Assembly: GCF_002009175.1 (NCBI RefSeq) | Contig: NZ_CP018047.1 | Coordinates: forward strand, 1,054,001-1,118,000 | DNA length: 64,000 nucleotides | Source of the DNA: Streptomyces niveus | Lineage (GTDB): Bacteria > Actinomycetota > Actinomycetes > Streptomycetales > Streptomycetaceae | Reading direction: 5' to 3' | Shown: piece by piece, positions 29,879-61,370 of the stretch | How positions within the stretch are numbered: the first letter of the stretch is position 1 | Layout: every line of letters begins with the position of its first letter | Notes under the pieces: model-generated | Told to the model about the DNA's origin: nothing | Seen by the model: only the letters and a program-made list of their open reading frames with translations | Databases searched by the model: none | Translations under genes and position numbers: made by a program

Positions 29879-31522
29879 TCAGGACTCCGTCACCTTGCCC
29901 CCCGCGACCTCGATCCGGCGGTCCGTGCGGACCGAGCCCAGCATGCGGCGGTCGTGTGTGACCAGGAGCAGCGTGCCATCGTAGGAGTCGAGCGCCGATT
30001 CCAGTTGTTCGATCGCCGCCAGGTCGAGATGGTTCGTCGGCTCGTCCAGCACCAGCAGGTTCACTCCCCGGCCCTGGAGCAGCGCGAGGGCCGCGCGGGT
30101 GCGTTCGCCCGGGGAGAGTGTCGTCGCCGGGCGCAGCACATGCGCCGCCTTGAGGCCGAACTTGGCCAGCAGCGTGCGGACTTCGGCCGGCTCCGTGTCC
30201 GGTACGGCCGCGCAGAACGCCTCCAGCAGGGTCTCCGTACCGTGGAACAGCGCGCGGGCCTGGTCGACCTCGCCGACCACCACGCCCGAGCCGAGCGAGG
30301 CCGCTCCCGCGTCGGGTGACAGCCTTCCCAGCAGGAGCGCCAGCAGGGTGGACTTGCCCGCGCCGTTCGCGCCGGTGATGGCTACCCGGTCCGCCCAGTC
30401 GATCTGGAGCGAGGCGGGCCCGAAGTGGAAGTCGCCGCGCCGGACTTCGGCGCCGTTGAGGGTCGCGACGACCGATCCGGAGCGCGGGGCGGACGCGATC
30501 TCCATCTGGAGCTCCCACTCCTTGCGGGGCTCGTCCACGGCCTCGGCGTCCAGCCGTTCGATCAGGCGCTGGGTCTGGCGGGCCTTCGCGGCCTGCTTCT
30601 CGCTCGCCTCGGAGCGGAACTTACGGCCGATCTTGTCGTTGTCCGTGGCCTTGCGGCGCGCGTTCTTGACGCCCTTGTCCATCCAGGAGCGCTGCGTCTG
30701 GGCCCGGCCCTGGAGGGCCGAGCGCTTGTCGGCGTACTCGTCGTACTCCTCACGCGCGTGCTGCCGGGCCCGCTCGCGCTCCTCCAGATACGCCGTGTAG
30801 CCGCCGCCGAAGAGATTGACCTGCTGCTGCGCCAGGTCGAGTTCGAGGACCTTGGTGACGGTGCGGGTGAGGAATTCGCGGTCGTGGCTGACGAGGACGG
30901 TGCCGGCGCGCAGGCCCGTGACGAAGGATTCGAGACGTTCGAGTCCGTCGAGGTCGAGGTCGTTCGTCGGCTCGTCCAGGAGGAAGACGTCGTAACGGGA
31001 CAGCAGCAGGGACGCCAGGCCCGCGCGCGCCGCCTCGCCGCCGGAGAGCGCCGTCATCGGCTGGTCGAGCCCGACGGTCAGACCGAGGGACGCGGCCACC
31101 TCCTCGGCGCGCTCGTCGAGGTCGGCGCCGCCGAGCCCGAGCCAGCGCTCCAGGCCCACGGCGTACGCGTCGTCGGCGCCGGGCGCGCCGTCGACGAGCG
31201 CCTGGGTGGCCACGTCGAGGGTCGCCTGGGCGTCGGTGACGCCCGTACGCCGGGAGAGGAAGTCCCGTACGGATTCGCCGGGGTGGCGCTCGGGCTCCTG
31301 CGGGAGGTGGCCCACGGTGGCGGTGGGCGGGGAGAGGCTCAGCGCCCCGTCCTCGGGCGTGTCGAGCCCGGCGAGCAGCCGGAGCAGGGTCGACTTCCCG
31401 GCTCCGTTGACCCCGACGAGCCCGATCACGTCGCCGGGCGCGACGACGAGGTCGAGCCCGGCGAAGAGTGAGCGGTCGCCGTGTCCTGCGGCGAGATTCT
31501 TGGCGACGAGAGTGGCAGTCAT
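29879..31522 (-). CDS. ABC-F family ribosome-associated ATPase
   Basis: Soluble protein (547 aa from ATG 31522) with two ABC ATPase domains and no TM segment. Walker A motifs are GVNGAGKST and GANGAGKST, signatures LSGGEAARAG and LSPGERTRAA, and Walker B plus switch VFLLDEPTNDLDL / LLVLDEPTNHLDL. The P-site linker between them is Arg/Lys/Gln-rich (SWMDKGVKNARRKATDND). ABC-F proteins bind the ribosomal E site and rescue or protect translation. MTATLVAKN is the usual beginning; a GTG at 31567 overlapping the upstream stop (GTGA) could add 15 residues. It is likely co-transcribed with the TrmH-like gene. Confidence 0.92.
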   Translation of the reverse strand: MTATLVAKNLAAGHGDRSLFAGLDLVVAPGDVIGLVGVNGAGKSTLLRLLAGLDTPEDGALSLSPPTATVGHLPQEPERHPGESVRDFLSRRTGVTDAQATLDVATQALVDGAPGADDAYAVGLERWLGLGGADLDERAEEVAASLGLTVGLDQPMTALSGGEAARAGLASLLLSRYDVFLLDEPTNDLDLDGLERLESFVTGLRAGTVLVSHDREFLTRTVTKVLELDLAQQQVNLFGGGYTAYLEERERARQHAREEYDEYADKRSALQGRAQTQRSWMDKGVKNARRKATDNDKIGRKFRSEASEKQAAKARQTQRLIERLDAEAVDEPRKEWELQMEIASAPRSGSVVATLNGAEVRRGDFHFGPASLQIDWADRVAITGANGAGKSTLLALLLGRLSPDAGAASLGSGVVVGEVDQARALFHGTETLLEAFCAAVPDTEPAEVRTLLAKFGLKAAHVLRPATTLSPGERTRAALALLQGRGVNLLVLDEPTNHLDLAAIEQLESALDSYDGTLLLVTHDRRMLGSVRTDRRIEVAGGKVTES

Positions 31523-31563
31523 CAGACCGTCGATTCTAGGGCTTGGAAACGTGGGGGCCGTGG

Positions 31564-32079
31564 TCACAGCAGGCCGGCCAGTCTGTAGAGGGCCAGGCTG
31601 CCGGCGACGGCGACGTTGAGGCTGGCGCCGGTGCCGATCATGGGGATCTCCACGCAGGTGTCCAGCAGGTCGAGCGCTTCTGGCGGGATGCCCTGCTGTT
31701 CGTGGCCCAGGACCATCACGGTGCGTCGCCGGGCGGCGGGGAGGTCCGCCAGGCGTACGGCCTCGTCCGCGAGTTCGACCCCTACGATGTGCGCGCCCCC
31801 CTCACGCTGCCGGGCGAGCCAGCCGAGCGGATCGCCCGTCCAGTGCACGCACAGGGGTCTGCGCAGGGTGTTGCCGCGCGCCAGTGCCTCCGGGACCCAT
31901 GGGAACCGCGGCAGGGCGAGGCACGCGCCGACGGCGTCGCAGGTACGGGCGAGGGTGCCGAGGTTGGCTCCGTGCAGGGGCCACAGCGGCGCCGCGTAGA
32001 GGTGGTCCCAGCAGGAGTGCCCGCGTGGGCGGCGGCTGCGGCGCAGTTCCGCGGGTGTACGGGCGCGGATCGCGGTCAT
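31564..32079 (-). CDS. TrmH/SpoU-family RNA 2'-O-methyltransferase
   Basis: SPOUT methyltransferase (171 aa from ATG 32079) with the knot motifs ANLGTLARTCDAVGA, VMVLGHEQQGIPPEAL and IPMIGTGASLNVAVAGSLALYRL, the last being the SAM-binding SLNVxVA trefoil loop. It probably methylates rRNA or tRNA; the target is unknown. A GTG at 32205 would add a Pro-rich 42-residue N-terminus that looks non-native and nearly reaches the divergent gene, so I prefer 32079 despite a poor ribosome site. It lies upstream of the ABC-F gene, a translation-related pairing. Confidence 0.85.
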   Translation of the reverse strand: MTAIRARTPAELRRSRRPRGHSCWDHLYAAPLWPLHGANLGTLARTCDAVGACLALPRFPWVPEALARGNTLRRPLCVHWTGDPLGWLARQREGGAHIVGVELADEAVRLADLPAARRRTVMVLGHEQQGIPPEALDLLDTCVEIPMIGTGASLNVAVAGSLALYRLAGLL

Positions 32080-54719: not shown

Positions 54720-55136
54720 TTGTCCACCGTCATCGAGCAGGCCCTGCAAGCCCGGCTGGTCGCCTCGGCGCCGCAGCTGGAGACCGTTCCCGCCACCCTG
54801 CGCTACGACGGCGAGGATCCCTTCGCCGTGCGGATGGCGTTCCCGCCCACGGCGACCCTGGAGGGCACGGAGGTGTCCTGGGCGTTCTCCCGCGAGCTGC
54901 TGACCCTCGGGATGGACGAGCCGGCCGGACTCGGTGACGTACGCGTGAGGCCGTTCGGCTACGACCGTACGGTCCTGGAGTTCCACGCCCCCGAGGGCGT
55001 CGCGATGGTCCATGTCCGCACGTCGGAGGTGCGGCGCTTCCTCGACCGCTCCCTGGGCGTCGTCCCGGTCGGCCGCGAGCATCTGCACCTGGATCTGGAC
55101 CACGACCTCGCCGAGCTGCTGCGCGACGCCTGCTGA
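54720..55136 (+). CDS. ssgD: SsgA-like sporulation/cell-division protein, probable SsgD
   Basis: 138-aa SsgA-like protein (SALP), a family confined to morphologically complex actinomycetes that guides septum and wall remodelling. Family features: LPATLRYD-like segment ATLRYDGEDPFAVRMAFP, WAFSRELLTLGMDEPAGLGDVRV and a C-terminal FLDRSLGVVPVGRE helix. It starts with TTG at 54720, 6 nt after GGGGAG. The name ssgD rests on position relative to neighbours (S. coelicolor SCO6722 from memory) more than on sequence. Confidence 0.8.
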   Translation: MSTVIEQALQARLVASAPQLETVPATLRYDGEDPFAVRMAFPPTATLEGTEVSWAFSRELLTLGMDEPAGLGDVRVRPFGYDRTVLEFHAPEGVAMVHVRTSEVRRFLDRSLGVVPVGREHLHLDLDHDLAELLRDAC

Positions 55137-55212
55137 ACCCTGCCGCCCCGTCCGTCCCGCCCGCCACGCCCGCCCCGCCCGCCCCGTCCGCCCCGTCCGC
55201 CCGAAAAACGCG

Positions 55213-55241
55213 TTGCCCCTCCCCCGGCGCGCTCGTACGGT
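55213..55241 (+). promoter_or_regulatory. Promoter of the ABC-F resistance-type gene
   Basis: -35 TTGCCC (55213-55218), exact 17-bp spacer, -10 TACGGT (55236-55241). Transcription from ~55248 would give a ~186-nt untranslated leader containing a mini-ORF. The 70 nt before it are a C-rich CCCGCCCCG-type tandem low-complexity tract with no gene. Confidence 0.6.
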
Positions 55242-55278
55242 GTTCAGCGTTCCTGTTGTCACCGAACGGAGTAGGACG

Positions 55279-55290
55279 TTGCTCTTCTGA
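55279..55290 (+). CDS. Three-codon leader ORF (MLF-stop) upstream of the ABC-F gene
   Basis: TTG CTC TTC TGA with GGAG 7 nt upstream, an ideal ribosome site for a peptide of only three residues. Its position in a long structured leader of an antibiotic-resistance-type ABC-F gene suggests a drug-sensing translated leader. Confidence 0.55.
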   Translation: MLF

Positions 55291-55296
55291 GGTCCT

Positions 55297-55390
55297 GAGA
55301 CACCGTGCCGCGCGGCTCCCTGCCCGCGCGCACCGCGTGCGACCTCGGCGATCGAGCCGTCCCTTCCCCGGTGCCCTCCGCCGGTGTCTC
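55297..55390 (+). promoter_or_regulatory. Structured leader with long-range helix before the ABC-F gene
   Basis: GAGACACCG (55297-55305) pairs perfectly with CGGTGTCTC (55382-55390). The helix begins just after the mini-ORF stop. The overlapping GGTCCTG (55291-55297) could alternatively pair with the gene's own ribosome site CAGGAGACC, giving two mutually exclusive folds. Confidence 0.55.
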
Positions 55391-55433
55391 CCACCGTTGC
55401 CCCGCATCCCTTCGCAGCAGCCAGGAGACCCGT

Positions 55434-57068
55434 ATGTCTACTTCCGCCCAAATCACTTGCTCCGCGCTCTCCTTCGGATGGCCGGACGGAAGTGTCGTGT
55501 TCGACGACTTCCAACTGGCCGTCGGTCCCGGCAGAACCGGCCTCGTCGGAGTCAACGGGTCAGGTAAATCAACCCTGTTGAAGCTCATGGCCGGCGCGCT
55601 CACCCCCACGGACGGCCGGGCGGACGTGGTGGGCGAGATCGGATATCTCCCGCAGAACGCCGTCCTCGACACCGCTCTGCGCGTCGACCAGGCGCTCGGT
55701 ATCGCGGGCGTCCGCGCCGCGCTGCTCGCCGTCGAGGCGGGCGACGCGAGCGAGGAGAACTTCGCCGCCGTCGGCGACGACTGGGACGTCGAGGAGCGGG
55801 CGCGCGCCACGCTCGACCAGCTCGGGCTCGGGCACGTGGGCCTCGACCGCACCATCGGCGAGGTGTCCGGCGGCGAGTGCGTCCTGCTGCGGCTGGCGGC
55901 CCTGCTGCTGGCCCGGCCCTCGGTGCTGCTGCTCGACGAGCCGACGAACAATCTGGATCTGTACGCGCGCCGGCGGCTGCACGCGGCCGTCGCCGCCTGG
56001 TCCGGCCTGCTGGTCGTGGTCAGTCATGACCGCGAACTGCTCGATCTGGTCGACCGGATCGCCGATCTGCGGGACGGCGAGGTCACCTGGTACGGCGGGA
56101 ACTTCTCCGCGTACGAGGAAGCCCTCGCCGTCGAACAGGAGGCCGCGGAGCGGATGGTGCGCGTCGCCGAGAGCGATGTGCAGCGGCAGAAGCGCGAACT
56201 GGCCGACGCACAGGTCAAGTTGGCGCGGCGCAAGCGCTACGGACAGAAGATGTGGGACACCAAGCGCGAGCCGAAAGCCGTCATGGCCCAGCGCAAGCGC
56301 CAGGCTCAGGTGTCGGCGGGCAAGCACCGCGCCATGCACACCACGAAGCTCGCGGAGGCGCGGGAACGGCTCGGCGAGGCGGTGGAGGCGGTGCGCGACG
56401 ACGACGAGATCCGGATCGAGCTGCCCGCCACGGAGGTCCACGCCGGTGTCGGCGTGCTGCGGCTGCGCGAGCTGGAGCTGCGGTACGGCGCGCGGGCGGC
56501 GGGTGAGTTCACGATCCACGGCCCGGAGCGGATCGCGCTGGTGGGACGGAACGGCGCGGGCAAGACGACGCTGCTGCGGACGGTCGCCGGGGAGCTGGCG
56601 CCGGTCTCCGGCGAGGCCGAGACGCTGGTGCCGACGCGCTTCCTGCCGCAGCGGCTCGACGTCCTGGACGACGCGCTGAGCGTGGTCGAGAACGTCGCGC
56701 GGTTCGCCCCCGGCGCCACCGACAACGAGATCCGGGCGCGGCTCGCCCGCTTCCTGTTCCGGGGCGCGCGGGCGAACCAGCCTGCCGGGACCCTGTCGGG
56801 CGGGGAGCGGTTCCGTGCCTCGCTCGCCGCCCTGCTGCTCGCGCGGCCGGCGCCCCGGCTGCTGATGCTGGACGAGCCGACGAACAGTCTCGATCTGGCG
56901 AGCGTGCGCGCGCTCACGGCGGCCCTGGGCTCGTACCGGGGCGCGCTGGTCGTGGCGAGCCACGACGTGCCGTTCCTGGAGTCGATCGGTGTCAGCCGGT
57001 GGCTGCTGCTCGACGGCGAGCTGCGCGACACCACGGCGGAGGAGGTACGGGCAGGTCAGCCCTCCTGA
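55434..57068 (+). CDS. ABC-F protein, antibiotic-resistance type
   Basis: 544-aa soluble double-ATPase with Walker A GVNGSGKST and GRNGAGKTT, signatures VSGGECVLLR and LSGGERFRAS, and Walker B LLLDEPTNNLDL / LMLDEPTNSLDL. The linker is long and basic (RRKRYGQKMWDTKREPKAV). It resembles antibiotic-resistance ABC-F proteins of Streptomyces (TlrC/SrmB/OleB-like group), which dislodge ribosome-targeting drugs; the target is not readable. The ATG at 55434 has AGGAGA 5 nt upstream. It is preceded by an attenuator-like leader and followed by a UvrA-like gene. Confidence 0.9.
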   Translation: MSTSAQITCSALSFGWPDGSVVFDDFQLAVGPGRTGLVGVNGSGKSTLLKLMAGALTPTDGRADVVGEIGYLPQNAVLDTALRVDQALGIAGVRAALLAVEAGDASEENFAAVGDDWDVEERARATLDQLGLGHVGLDRTIGEVSGGECVLLRLAALLLARPSVLLLDEPTNNLDLYARRRLHAAVAAWSGLLVVVSHDRELLDLVDRIADLRDGEVTWYGGNFSAYEEALAVEQEAAERMVRVAESDVQRQKRELADAQVKLARRKRYGQKMWDTKREPKAVMAQRKRQAQVSAGKHRAMHTTKLAEARERLGEAVEAVRDDDEIRIELPATEVHAGVGVLRLRELELRYGARAAGEFTIHGPERIALVGRNGAGKTTLLRTVAGELAPVSGEAETLVPTRFLPQRLDVLDDALSVVENVARFAPGATDNEIRARLARFLFRGARANQPAGTLSGGERFRASLAALLLARPAPRLLMLDEPTNSLDLASVRALTAALGSYRGALVVASHDVPFLESIGVSRWLLLDGELRDTTAEEVRAGQPS

Positions 57069-57125: not shown

Positions 57126-59414
57126 ATGCCACAGAACATCACCATCGTGGGCGCCCGTGAGAACAACCTCAGGAACGTCTCGCTGACCATCCCCAAGGAC
57201 CGGATCACCGTCTTCACCGGTGTCTCCGGCTCCGGCAAGTCCTCGATCGTCTTCGACACCATCGCCGTGGAGTCCCGGCGACAGCTCAACGAGACCTTCA
57301 CGACGTACATCAGGAACCGGCTGCCCAAGTACGAACGGCCGCACGTCGAGGCGATCGACGATCTGTCGGTCGCGATCGTCATCGACCAGAAGCCCGTCGG
57401 CGGCAACGTCCGCTCCACCGTCGGCACGATGACCGACATCTACTCGGTGATCCGGGTGCTGTTCTCGCGGTACGGCACGCCGAGCGCGGGGGCGGCCACC
57501 GCGTACTCCTTCAACGACCCGTCCGGCATGTGCCCGGAGTGCGACGGCGTGGGCCGGGTGGTGCGGCTCGACCTCGACCGCGCGTTCGACTGGTCGAAGT
57601 CCCTGAACGGGGGCGCGCTGCTGCTGCCGGGGCTGACGGTGGGCGGCTGGGAGTGGAAGCTGTACGCCGGGTCCGGGCACTTCGACCCGGACAAGCCGAT
57701 CGACCAGTACACCGCCGAGGAGCGTCAACTGCTCCTGCACGGAGGTGATTTCACCGTCAAGGTGGAGATGAAGACAGGATCGGCCGACATGCGGTTCGAG
57801 GGGGTCGTGGGCCGTTTCACCCGGCTGTTCCTCAAGCGCGACACGGCCGGCATGTCCGAGAAGCGCAAGGAGGCCGCGAGCCGTTTCACCTCGGAGCGGG
57901 TGTGCGACGCGTGCGGCGGGGCCCGGCTGAACGAGGCGGCCCTTGCCACCCGTATCGACGGCCTGTCCATCGCCGACTTCACGCGGATGGAGGTCGCCGA
58001 CCTGGCCGAGGTGCTGGCGCGGATCGACGATCCGGTGGCGACGCCGATCGCCGCCGCCGCGCGCGCCCGGCTGGACCGGCTGGTCGGCATCGGACTCGGC
58101 TATCTGAGCCTGGACCGGGAGACGACGACACTGTCCGGCGGCGAGGGGCAGCGGCTCAAGATGGTTCGCCATCTGGGGAGTTCACTGACGGGGCTGACGT
58201 TCATCTTCGACGAGCCGAGCGTGGGCCTGCACCCGCGCGACGTGGGACGGCTGAACGATCTGCTGCGGCGGCTGCGCGACCGGGGCAACACGGTGCTGGT
58301 GGTGGAGCACGACCCCGATGTGGTGGCGATCGCGGACCATGTCGTCGACATGGGGCCGAGGGCGGGCGCGGACGGCGGACAGGTGGTGTTCGAAGGGACC
58401 GTGGAACAGCTGCGGGAGGCCGGCACGCTCACCGGGCGGCATCTGGTGAGCCGTACGCCCATGAAGGAGCGCTTCCGCTCCCCCACCGGCCAACTCCCGG
58501 TGCGGGGCGCCGCGTTGCACAATCTGAAGGGCATCGACGTACAGTTCCCGGCCGGGGTGCTGACGGCGGTGACCGGTGTCGCGGGGTCGGGGAAGTCGAC
58601 GCTGGTCTCCGAGGTCTTCACGGCCGCCCACCCGGACGCGATCGTCATCGACCAGAGCGCGATCACGGCCTCGTCGCGGTCCACCCCGGCGTCGTACATC
58701 GGCGTCATGGACACCGTCCGCAAGGTCTACGCGAAGGTGAACCGCGTCCAGCCCGGCCTCTTCAGCTTCAACTCGTCGGGCGCCTGCGCCGAGTGCGCCG
58801 GCCGCGGGATCATCTACACCGATCTGGCGTTCATGGATCCGGTGACGACCGTCTGCCAGGTGTGCGAGGGCCGGCGGTTCAACGACGACGTGCTCGCGCA
58901 CAAGGTGGGCGGCCGGTCGATCGTCGACGTCCTGGACATGACGGCCGCTCAGGCGATCCCGTTCTTCGAGGAGTTCGGCGGTGACAAGCTGCTGCTGCGC
59001 AAGCTCCGGACCCTGAACGACGTGGGCCTGACGTATCTGACGCTCGGTCAGCCGCTCAGTTCGCTGTCGGGCGGTGAGCGGCAGCGCATCAAGCTGGCGA
59101 CCCAACTGCACCGTACGGGCAGCGTGTACGTCCTGGACGAGCCGACCACCGGACTGCACATGGCGGACGTGGGCACCCTGCTGGCGCTGCTCGACCGGCT
59201 GGTGGACGCGGGGAACTCGGTGATCTGCGTCGAGCACAACATGGACGTGGTCAAGCGGGCCGACTGGGTGATCGATCTGGGCCCGGACGGCGGGAAGCAC
59301 GGCGGCGAGATCGTCTTCGAGGGCACACCGGGCGAACTGCTGCGCCACCCCAAGTCGTTCACGGCGCAGTACCTCCGGCGGGAGCTGGGCCTGTCGGACC
59401 CGTCCGGCGACTGA
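57126..59414 (+). CDS. UvrA-like drug-resistance ATPase (DrrC/UvrA2 type)
   Basis: 762-aa UvrA paralogue, shorter than housekeeping UvrA (~950 aa). Walker A motifs GVSGSGKSS and GVAGSGKST; ABC signatures LSGGEGQRLK and LSGGERQRIK; Walker B FIFDEPSVGLH and YVLDEPTTGLH. Zinc-finger cysteines are in MCPECDGVG, VCDACGGAR, ACAECAGRG and QVCEGRR. Relatives such as DrrC protect against DNA-binding drugs like daunorubicin. There is no ribosome site before the ATG, and TAGCTT ends 7 nt upstream, so it may be transcribed leaderless from its own promoter. Its pairing with an ABC-F gene suggests a resistance function. Confidence 0.92.
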   Translation: MPQNITIVGARENNLRNVSLTIPKDRITVFTGVSGSGKSSIVFDTIAVESRRQLNETFTTYIRNRLPKYERPHVEAIDDLSVAIVIDQKPVGGNVRSTVGTMTDIYSVIRVLFSRYGTPSAGAATAYSFNDPSGMCPECDGVGRVVRLDLDRAFDWSKSLNGGALLLPGLTVGGWEWKLYAGSGHFDPDKPIDQYTAEERQLLLHGGDFTVKVEMKTGSADMRFEGVVGRFTRLFLKRDTAGMSEKRKEAASRFTSERVCDACGGARLNEAALATRIDGLSIADFTRMEVADLAEVLARIDDPVATPIAAAARARLDRLVGIGLGYLSLDRETTTLSGGEGQRLKMVRHLGSSLTGLTFIFDEPSVGLHPRDVGRLNDLLRRLRDRGNTVLVVEHDPDVVAIADHVVDMGPRAGADGGQVVFEGTVEQLREAGTLTGRHLVSRTPMKERFRSPTGQLPVRGAALHNLKGIDVQFPAGVLTAVTGVAGSGKSTLVSEVFTAAHPDAIVIDQSAITASSRSTPASYIGVMDTVRKVYAKVNRVQPGLFSFNSSGACAECAGRGIIYTDLAFMDPVTTVCQVCEGRRFNDDVLAHKVGGRSIVDVLDMTAAQAIPFFEEFGGDKLLLRKLRTLNDVGLTYLTLGQPLSSLSGGERQRIKLATQLHRTGSVYVLDEPTTGLHMADVGTLLALLDRLVDAGNSVICVEHNMDVVKRADWVIDLGPDGGKHGGEIVFEGTPGELLRHPKSFTAQYLRRELGLSDPSGD

Positions 59415-60395: not shown

Positions 60396-61370
60396 GTGAC
60401 ACTCACCTCTCCCCATCTCGGCAGTTCTGAGGCGTGGACCGACGCCCGGTTGCTGTACGCGCTGGAAGAGGTGGTGGAGAAAGAACTCAACCGCCATCTC
60501 AAGGTCGCCAAGGACTGGATGCCGCACGAGTACGTGCCCTGGTCCGACGCGCGCAACTTCCCCGGATTCTTCGAGGACGGCACGGTCTGGGAGCCGGAGC
60601 AGTCCAAGGTGACCGACATCGGCAAGATCGCCCTCGTGGTGAACCTGCTGACCGAGGACAACCTCCCCAGCTACCACCACGAGATCGCCAGCCTCTTCGG
60701 CCGTGACGGAGCCTGGGGCACCTGGGTGCACCGCTGGACCGCCGAGGAGGGCCGGCACGGCATCGTGATGCGCGACTACCTGCTCGCCTCGCGCGCCGTC
60801 GACCCGGACAAGCTGGAGCAGTTCCGGATGACGCACATGGCGGAGGGCTTCGAGTCGGACAACCGCCACTCGATGCTGCACTCCGTCGCGTACGTCGCCT
60901 TCCAGGAGCTGGCGACCCGCGTCTCGCACCGCAACACCGGCCACCAGTCGGGCGACCCGGTCTGCGACCGGATGCTGGCGCGTATCGCCACCGACGAGAA
61001 CCTGCACATGGTCTTCTACCGCAACCTGCTCGGCGCGGCCTTCGAGATCGCACCGGACCTGACCATGCAGGCCGTGCGCGACGTGGTCGTGCAGTTCCGG
61101 ATGCCGGGACACGGCATGCCCGGCTTCGAGCGCGCCGCCGCGCAGATGGCGATCGGCGAGATCTACAACATGCGCATCCACCACGACGACGTGCTCCAGC
61201 CGGTGCTGCGCTATCTGAAGGTGCTCGACATCGACGGGCTCGGTCCCGAGGGGCTCAAGGCGCAGGAGGAGCTCGGCCTGTACATGGGCGGGCTCGACTC
61301 GGAGGCGGCCAAGTTCGACGAGAAGCTCGCCGCCCGCAAGGCGCGGATGGCCGCGCGCGCCGCGCACTGA
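60396..61370 (+). CDS. Acyl-ACP (stearoyl-ACP type) desaturase
   Basis: 324-aa soluble di-iron fatty acyl-ACP desaturase, relative of DesA1/DesA2 and plant stearoyl-ACP desaturase. Iron ligands come from the two E-x2-H units in TAEEGRHGIV and IATDENLHMVFY plus Glu in NLLTEDNLPSYHHEI. It starts with GTG 60396, with AGGAG about 5 nt upstream. It introduces a double bond into acyl chains and so controls membrane fluidity. The tandem palindromes suggest a dedicated repressor. No ferredoxin gene is adjacent. Confidence 0.93.
   Translation: MTLTSPHLGSSEAWTDARLLYALEEVVEKELNRHLKVAKDWMPHEYVPWSDARNFPGFFEDGTVWEPEQSKVTDIGKIALVVNLLTEDNLPSYHHEIASLFGRDGAWGTWVHRWTAEEGRHGIVMRDYLLASRAVDPDKLEQFRMTHMAEGFESDNRHSMLHSVAYVAFQELATRVSHRNTGHQSGDPVCDRMLARIATDENLHMVFYRNLLGAAFEIAPDLTMQAVRDVVVQFRMPGHGMPGFERAAAQMAIGEIYNMRIHHDDVLQPVLRYLKVLDIDGLGPEGLKAQEELGLYMGGLDSEAAKFDEKLAARKARMAARAAH

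Follow-up and report, generated by a model that had tools for sequence, protein, structure and literature searches.

A conserved three-codon reading frame and exclusive helices point to a translational attenuator before an ABC-F gene of Streptomyces niveus

The question raised by the locus

Does the leader before a putative ribosome-protection ABC-F ATPase gene of Streptomyces niveus act as a switch, and what would such a switch sense? We analyzed a stretch of 64,000 nucleotides (nt) from NZ_CP018047.1 (positions 1,054,001 to 1,118,000 of the forward strand), which is part of a 7.99-Mb contig and is called the window below. An initial annotation of its sequence had proposed a ribosome-sensing leader, in which a ribosome stalled on a three-codon open reading frame (mini-ORF; ORF, open reading frame) changes the fold before the ABC-F gene. 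The core of this proposal is well supported by the conservation of the mini-ORF and the covariation of the helices, and we conclude that the leader is probably a translational attenuator with ermC-like wiring and a three-codon sensor ORF. A lack of conservation among orthologues had been named as one result that would speak against the proposal; mini-ORF and helices are conserved there, and the helices covary. The conservation pattern of the leader is real and not due to chance.

The mini-ORF is conserved in length and frame

The mini-ORF TTG-CTC-TTC-TGA and its GGAG, 7 nt upstream of the TTG, can be read in the window as the initial annotation had described them. The first set of loci comprised 80 fetched ABC-F loci and the window, and a start-X-X-TGA ORF was found in the leader of 68 of these 81 loci. 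The ORF-bearing rows beyond Streptomyces include Nocardiopsis, Planobispora, Planomonospora, Actinomadura, Nonomuraea, Saccharopolyspora, and Kribbella; in divergent leaders, purines resembling a Shine-Dalgarno (SD) sequence precede the mini-ORF at shifted positions.

For a further count, we used R1, a covariance model of the leader's 5' domain that holds helix A only (Table 1) and was made from 43 leaders. R1 was run on 81 sources, composed of 60 loci from genome matches or their regions and 21 first-set loci. This gave 67 aligned matches, 66 of them of the form start-X-X-TGA; the remaining one, L145, still stops at the fourth codon, as TAG, despite the loss of one base. The model asks for no codons; because it was built from ORF-bearing rows, the count of 67 start-X-X-stop ORFs in 67 matches is not fully independent. 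Fourteen of the 81 sources gave no R1 match, among them L060 and L079, both with a three-codon ORF.

The start codon was TTG in 64 aligned matches, GTG in 3, and never ATG. As a separate observation, this non-ATG start occurs in 67 of 67 matches though its first two bases are unpaired in the drawn helix A, and a weak start may be selected.

The encoded peptide varied. Codons 2 and 3 read LV in 45 of the 67 matches, which makes MLV the commonest peptide, and RI, LF, LI, LL, EF, RH, EN, or IS in others; MRI, MEI, MEN, MRN, MIS, and further peptides were found. The residues at codon 2 were L, R, E, I, Y, and F, and those at codon 3 were V, F, I, L, Y, N, G, S, and H. The MLF peptide named in the initial annotation is present in the window, although it turned out to be a minority variant (4/67). 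A conserved nascent peptide, the feature of arrest-peptide attenuators, was not found in the leaders compared, where codons 2 and 3 vary. The mini-ORF is thus kept in length and frame and not in peptide; because MLF is a minority variant and many other peptides occur, what the leader senses is unlikely to be the peptide sequence.

Three predicted helices connect the mini-ORF to the ribosome site of the gene

The helices were examined in alignment A1, which contains 62 of the 68 ORF-bearing leaders, its rows having been picked for the ORF. Omitted were L034 and L062 (gene start misplaced), L038, L076, and L079 (helix blocks absent), and L060 (other spacing). A second alignment, A2, holds 43 of 60 segments, the 60 being A1 minus L010 and L022, and the 17 omitted being mostly near-duplicates. 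The features of the window are summarized in Table 1.

Table 1. Features of the leader and of the ABC-F gene in the window
Feature	Position	Strand	Basis
Promoter: A-rich patch 55204-55208, -35-like TTGCCC 55213-55218, 17-nt spacer, -10-like TACGGT 55236-55241	55203..55241	+	Sequence; layout scan of 68 leaders
SD-like GGAG of the mini-ORF	55268..55271	+	Sequence
Helix A 5' arm (GGACG, GCTC, CTGAGGTC); takes in part of the mini-ORF start codon and the stop	55274..55294	+	Covariation, RNAalifold, swap test
Mini-ORF TTG-CTC-TTC-TGA (fM-L-F-stop)	55279..55290	+	Start-X-X-stop in 67/67 aligned model matches; 68/81 first-set loci
Helix B 5' arm GAGACACCG; by eye like the ribosome-binding site GGAGACCCG of the gene, i.e., a putative decoy for the B 3' arm	55297..55305	+	Covariation, complement test, swap test
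Helix A 3' arm (GACCTCGG, GAGC, CGTCC)	55341..55362	+	Covariation, RNAalifold, swap test
Helix B 3' arm CGGTGTCTC (55382-55390), also helix C 5' arm CGGTGTCTCC	55382..55391	+	Covariation, complement and swap tests
Helix C 3' arm GGAGACCCG: SD region of the ABC-F gene, nearly to the ATG	55424..55432	+	SD-core pairing count, swap test
ABC-F ATPase gene, two ABC domains, ATG at 55434; putative ribosome-protection type	55434..57068	+	Family matches

The 9-bp helix of the initial annotation (helix B) stood: GAGACACCG and CGGTGTCTC are perfectly complementary, with 76 nt between them. Its first arm had been placed directly after the mini-ORF; however, GGTCCT comes first, and the arm begins 6 nt later, at +19 from the mini-ORF start. 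Helix A takes in the mini-ORF itself. Unguided RNAalifold recovered this helix with 11 pairs, 4 of them with double changes, and the stretch GAGGTC covaries with GACCTC (55341-55346). For helices A and B together, 93.3% of 1598 cells were paired, whereas controls with slid partners reached 34-45%. Cells changed on both sides numbered 64 against 15.6 in shuffles and fell in 11 of the 26 pairs. On four of five measures, none of 500 shuffles came up to these values; on the fifth, the number of pairs changed on both sides, 3 of 500 did.

Since R1 does not contain helix B, the leaders that it found served as a further test of this helix. A perfectly complementary stretch of 8 nt or more was present in 44 of 59 further leaders, against 1.9% of shuffles, and in 37 of the 59 the 5' arm starts exactly at +19. 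These 59 include the paralogue of the window's own genome (L083) and at least two leaders (L119 and L121) that appear to lie on the contigs of L051 and L044 of the first set.

Helix C would join the 3' arm of helix B to the SD region of the gene; in the window, CGG.GTCTCC pairs with GGAGAC.CCG. This strand has the sequence TGGTGCTCGCA in MRI-type leaders, where TGCGAGAA..CACCA(TG) is a possible partner for it. At least two SD-core pairs with the B 3' arm were counted in 51 of 61 leaders, against 58% with the linker shuffled. In swap tests on the same 61 of the 62 leaders (L013 was too short), own arms gave -23.34 kcal/mol for helix A, -14.94 for helix B, and -12.76 for helix C, and for none of the three did any of 2000 random pairings do as well. 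Exchanging arms within a leader type likewise gave weaker pairing than the own arms for helix A (-23.03 vs -23.34) and helix C (-11.83 vs -12.76).

Compensatory change or swap tests thus support all three helices as predicted elements. Helices B and C share one strand and would be mutually exclusive: only one can form, because both use it. Additionally, the 5' arm of helix B lies within helix A, 2 nt past the 5' arm of A in 61 of 62 leaders, and with so short a connector full A and full B together would be strained. The gene SD is predicted to be masked by the 3' arm of the annotation's own 9-bp helix and not, as had been suggested, by GGTCCTG.

Occupation of the mini-ORF shifts the predicted fold

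The 62 leaders were folded as nested structures at 37 °C, and masks stood in for ribosomes; the mask on the mini-ORF forbade pairing from -16 to +15 around its start. In free leaders, the median was 0.81 for helix A and 0.00 for helix B. With the mini-ORF masked, the median of helix B rose from 0.00 to 0.87, and its 3' arm, which in free leaders formed a median of about 5 pairs with the last 20 leader bases, now formed 0.13. Opening the ribosome-binding site (RBS) took 9.67 kcal/mol instead of 11.64, the cost falling by more than 1 in 41 of 62 leaders and rising by more than 1 in 8, whereas a control mask of the same size placed elsewhere gave 11.11 kcal/mol (14 fell and 6 rose). With 20 coding bases included, helix A reached at least 0.5 in 49 of 62 free leaders. 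The release of the gene's ribosome site predicted in silico is modest.

Proposed mechanism and the signal sensed

In the proposed attenuator, ribosomes at rest would leave the three-codon ORF at once, and helix A would close over it, holding the segment between its arms, including the 5' arm of B. The later-made strand CGGTGTCTCC would then pair with the SD region GGAGACCCG as helix C, and little ABC-F protein would be made. Under induction, an antibiotic that holds a ribosome at the start of the ORF would keep helix A open. The footprint of a ribosome with the start codon in the P site ends near +16, before the first base of the B 5' arm (+19), which would leave GAGACACCG free. It could then capture CGGTGTCTC as helix B, and the ribosome site of the gene would be freed. 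A ribosome stalled two codons later would begin to cover the arm at +19.

This leader resembles ermC-type attenuators, which have a short upstream ORF of about nineteen codons and two alternative folds. An SD-preceded short ORF near the 5' end and mutually exclusive helices, one masking the gene SD, are predicted here from sequence and folding; common to both would be the short upstream ORF, the alternative folds, and an arm freed by stalling that captures the strand masking the gene SD. Unlike in ermC, the ORF of this leader has three codons, its peptide is variable with no conserved arrest peptide, and the helix closed at rest contains the ORF itself.

The fixed length of the ORF and the variability of codons 2 and 3 suggest that stalling at initiation or at the first peptide bonds fits better than peptide-specific arrest. 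Pleuromutilins, lincosamides, and streptogramin A act at these steps. We tentatively propose an antibiotic sensor free of an arrest peptide and about as short as a sensor can be, in which only length matters. It would register early-held ribosomes whatever the codons, with its decoy arm just past the edge of a ribosome on the start codon (+19), and might read a class of early-acting drugs in most Streptomyces species. If true, the main genus of antibiotic producers would have a widespread resistance switch (181/199 genomes) that senses drug action by ribosome position alone, and this would explain how intrinsic ABC-F genes answer several early-acting drugs without an arrest peptide. It also predicts the inducing drug classes and gives a simple rule, three codons and a helix arm at +19, for finding similar sensors.

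Points that weigh against the attenuator

Several results count against this attenuator. In the folding, the SD remained mostly paired even with the mini-ORF occupied (mean unpaired 0.14 to 0.22; 38 up and 10 down of 62), and its pairs decreased only from 4.04 to 3.02 on occupation when the 30 nt from the B 3' arm on and 20 nt of coding sequence were counted. With 20 nt of coding sequence added, helix B reached 0.5 in 35 of 62 occupied leaders. The window's own minimum, with the same 20 nt, combined helix B with direct pairing of ORF and SD, not A with C (A 0.12, B 0.88), and its resting fold is thus not certain; helix A is transcribed before the B 3' arm and could form first. The exclusion of B by A would rest on the 2-nt connector (61/62), not on a three-dimensional model.

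The comparative data hold further points of this kind. A column count on the automatic alignment A1 gave no covariation for helix C (65.1% vs 63.4% shuffled), in our view because gaps are misregistered and the arms stand in different columns in the two main types; helix C was for this reason judged by folding and swap tests instead. Own arms of helix B were no better than within-type swaps (-14.94 vs -15.29); its signal therefore arises between the types and reflects few events. MRI-type leaders were weak in the test for complements of at least 8 nt (1/9), since their helix B has an internal mismatch. The mini-ORF occurs without the helices in L038, L076, and L079. Finally, the rows are related, and some of the 59 further leaders come from genomes already in the first set.

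Distribution of the leader

R1 matched 181 of 199 Streptomyces genomes, the window's own included. Across the class, it matched 39 of 296 genomes, which represent 11 of 114 genera and include 25 Streptomyces; both searches were run with stricter filters. An ABC-F frame adjoins the leader in all 57 fetched loci of R1 matches at E<=0.01, these being the best matches of the Streptomyces and class searches and not every matching genome.

The window's own genome gave two R1 matches at E<=0.01, the window's leader and C1:3793179-3793308 (minus), and five further matches at E 3.2-8.5 that were taken as chance. As an observation in its own right, the second copy (L118) is MRI-type, with the ORF TTG-CGC-ATC-TGA, and precedes a paralogous ABC-F gene about 65% identical.

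Thirteen of the 81 first-set loci had no start-X-X-TGA ORF in the leader, and one of these (L059) has the leader farther upstream. At this locus (L059:564-681 and 796-2433, minus), leader and ABC-F gene are separated by a transposase-like ORF, and the gene appears cut off from its leader.

The view that the leader is general to ABC-F genes was rejected: the window's own genome has five ABC-F-like genes, yet only two R1 matches at E<=0.01. The 13 first-set loci without the leader directly before the gene and the second ABC-F-like gene of the window also contradict it. This second gene (29879-31567, minus) lies close behind another reading frame and scored 370 bits to the NCBIfam model NF000355 (cut-off 380). 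No leader of the three-codon-ORF kind was found upstream of it.

The leader promoter

The promoter with 17-bp spacing that had been reported can be read directly in the window. The length of about 186 nt given for the leader presumes a transcription start a few bases past the -10. The layout TTGNNN-(16-19)-TANNNT, ending 34-42 nt before the mini-ORF, was present in 58 of 68 leaders, whereas shuffled regions gave about 0.016 each; 39 of these 58 leaders had at least five A/T among the six bases at -9 to -4 from the TTG. Ten leaders lacked the layout, five of them MRI-type. A scan for the strict sigma-70 consensus did not report the leader promoter of the window (0 found). An A/T-rich patch, a TTG -35, and a TANNNT -10 form what we take to be the WblC/WhiB7 promoter signature; these features are present, and the leader promoter resembles promoters of this type.

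Alternative explanations

The mini-ORF might sense general translation stress, such as slow initiation or a shortage of initiation factor or tRNA, rather than the drugs countered by the ABC-F protein. With its three codons, their variability, and its weak start (TTG or GTG in 67/67), the mini-ORF could report slow starts of any kind, and the promoter resembles targets of WblC/WhiB7, whose regulon is a general ribosome-stress regulon. The ABC-F frame beside 57 of 57 fetched matches, however, suggests a sensor matched to the drugs of that protein, and we consider general stress an unlikely signal. The leader of WhiB7/WblC itself has its own upstream ORF and responds to ribosome drugs. It shares with the present leader the small upstream ORF, a similar promoter signature, and the actinobacterial host, whereas it controls a transcription factor gene and the leader studied here stands beside ABC-F frames.

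It is also decidedly unlikely that the leader acts by transcription attenuation, deciding polymerase read-in through intrinsic or Rho-dependent termination, with a ribosome on the mini-ORF switching terminator and antiterminator. Several ABC-F leaders of Firmicutes (vmlR, vga(A), and lmo0919) are mainly transcription attenuators with an intrinsic terminator, and they share with this one a ribosome-sensing leader ORF before an ABC-F gene. By eye, some leaders seem to have an additional GGGC...GCCC hairpin; sequence scans are weak here, since terminators of Streptomyces need not carry U-runs. Unlike those Firmicutes leaders, the leader of the window showed no terminator-like site between mini-ORF and gene (0 found). 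Terminators were predicted in 7 of 62 leaders against 8.4% of shuffles, which is no excess (Rho was not examined), and an intrinsic terminator in this region was rejected. Moreover, the helix that masks the gene SD in most leaders (51/61; swap test) would be needless under transcription control.

The initial annotation had wired the leader differently: the stretch after the mini-ORF (GGTCCTG) would pair directly with the gene SD (AGGAG), the ribosome would displace it, and helix B would be a constant scaffold. For the window, folding with 20 coding nucleotides predicts this arrangement as the minimum. Across 61 leaders, however, own pairing was no better than random (-10.73 vs -10.83 kcal/mol), and at least three such pairs were predicted, with the same coding bases, in just 10 of 62 leaders, the window being one of them. 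The ORF arms of MRI-type leaders even paired better with the RBS of other types (-10.87) than with their own (-8.86), and helix A, which covaries, uses the same bases. We regard this wiring as very improbable; the swap test led us to reject direct pairing as a conserved mechanism and to keep it as a possible extra specific to the window.

It is extremely unlikely that the leader RNA serves to bind a protein or a ligand, such as in autoregulation by ABC-F, and that its mini-ORF is incidental: strong sequence conservation, also upstream of the mini-ORF, would fit, but all 67 matches to a model that asks for no codons (though built from ORF-bearing rows) retain start and stop, the first two start-codon bases are unpaired in the drawn helix A, and L145 keeps a TAG stop. 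A mere N-terminal extension of the ABC-F protein, for which the window's frame is open from 55305, was rejected, as 52 of 62 leaders hold an in-frame stop.

In the same genus and gene family, lmrC of Streptomyces is reportedly a leader-controlled ABC-F gene for which short-ORF attenuation has been proposed.

The ABC-F gene, its neighbors, and other leaders

The domain search found two ABC_tran stretches in the ABC-F product, and its relatives carry ABC-F annotation. Against NF000355, a ribosomal-protection model, it reached E 2.3e-101 and 340 bits, below the curated cut-off of 380. The closest solved structures were YheS, EttA, and YbiT, with PoxtA lower. The SD of the gene is AGGAG at 55423-55427. 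Upstream lies ssgD (54720-55136; NCBIfam SpWSynRegSsgD), and downstream a UvrA-like gene (57126-59414).

Other leader types were also observed. In Nocardia (L076 and L079), the ORF TTG-ATT-TCN-TGA (MIS) stands just 65-68 nt ahead of the ABC-F gene; helices A and B seem to be missing there, and this is perhaps a minimal version. Seven more distant ABC-F relatives (L064, L066, L067, L068, L071, L072, and L073; four Micromonospora, one Actinomadura, and two Streptomyces) have leaders 130-200 nt upstream of the gene with a different conserved peptide, M-x(1-3)-GDDDISG-stop; some of these show, by eye, a CTCCGGG/CCCGGAG repeat around the stop of the peptide.

No Rfam family matched the leader of the window above its gathering score; the sole match at E<=10 was ASdes on the opposite strand, with 17.7 bits against 40. 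Elsewhere in the window, at 60747-60814 (minus), ASdes (RF01781, described as a TB sRNA) matched with 72.2 bits, here in a Streptomyces genome.

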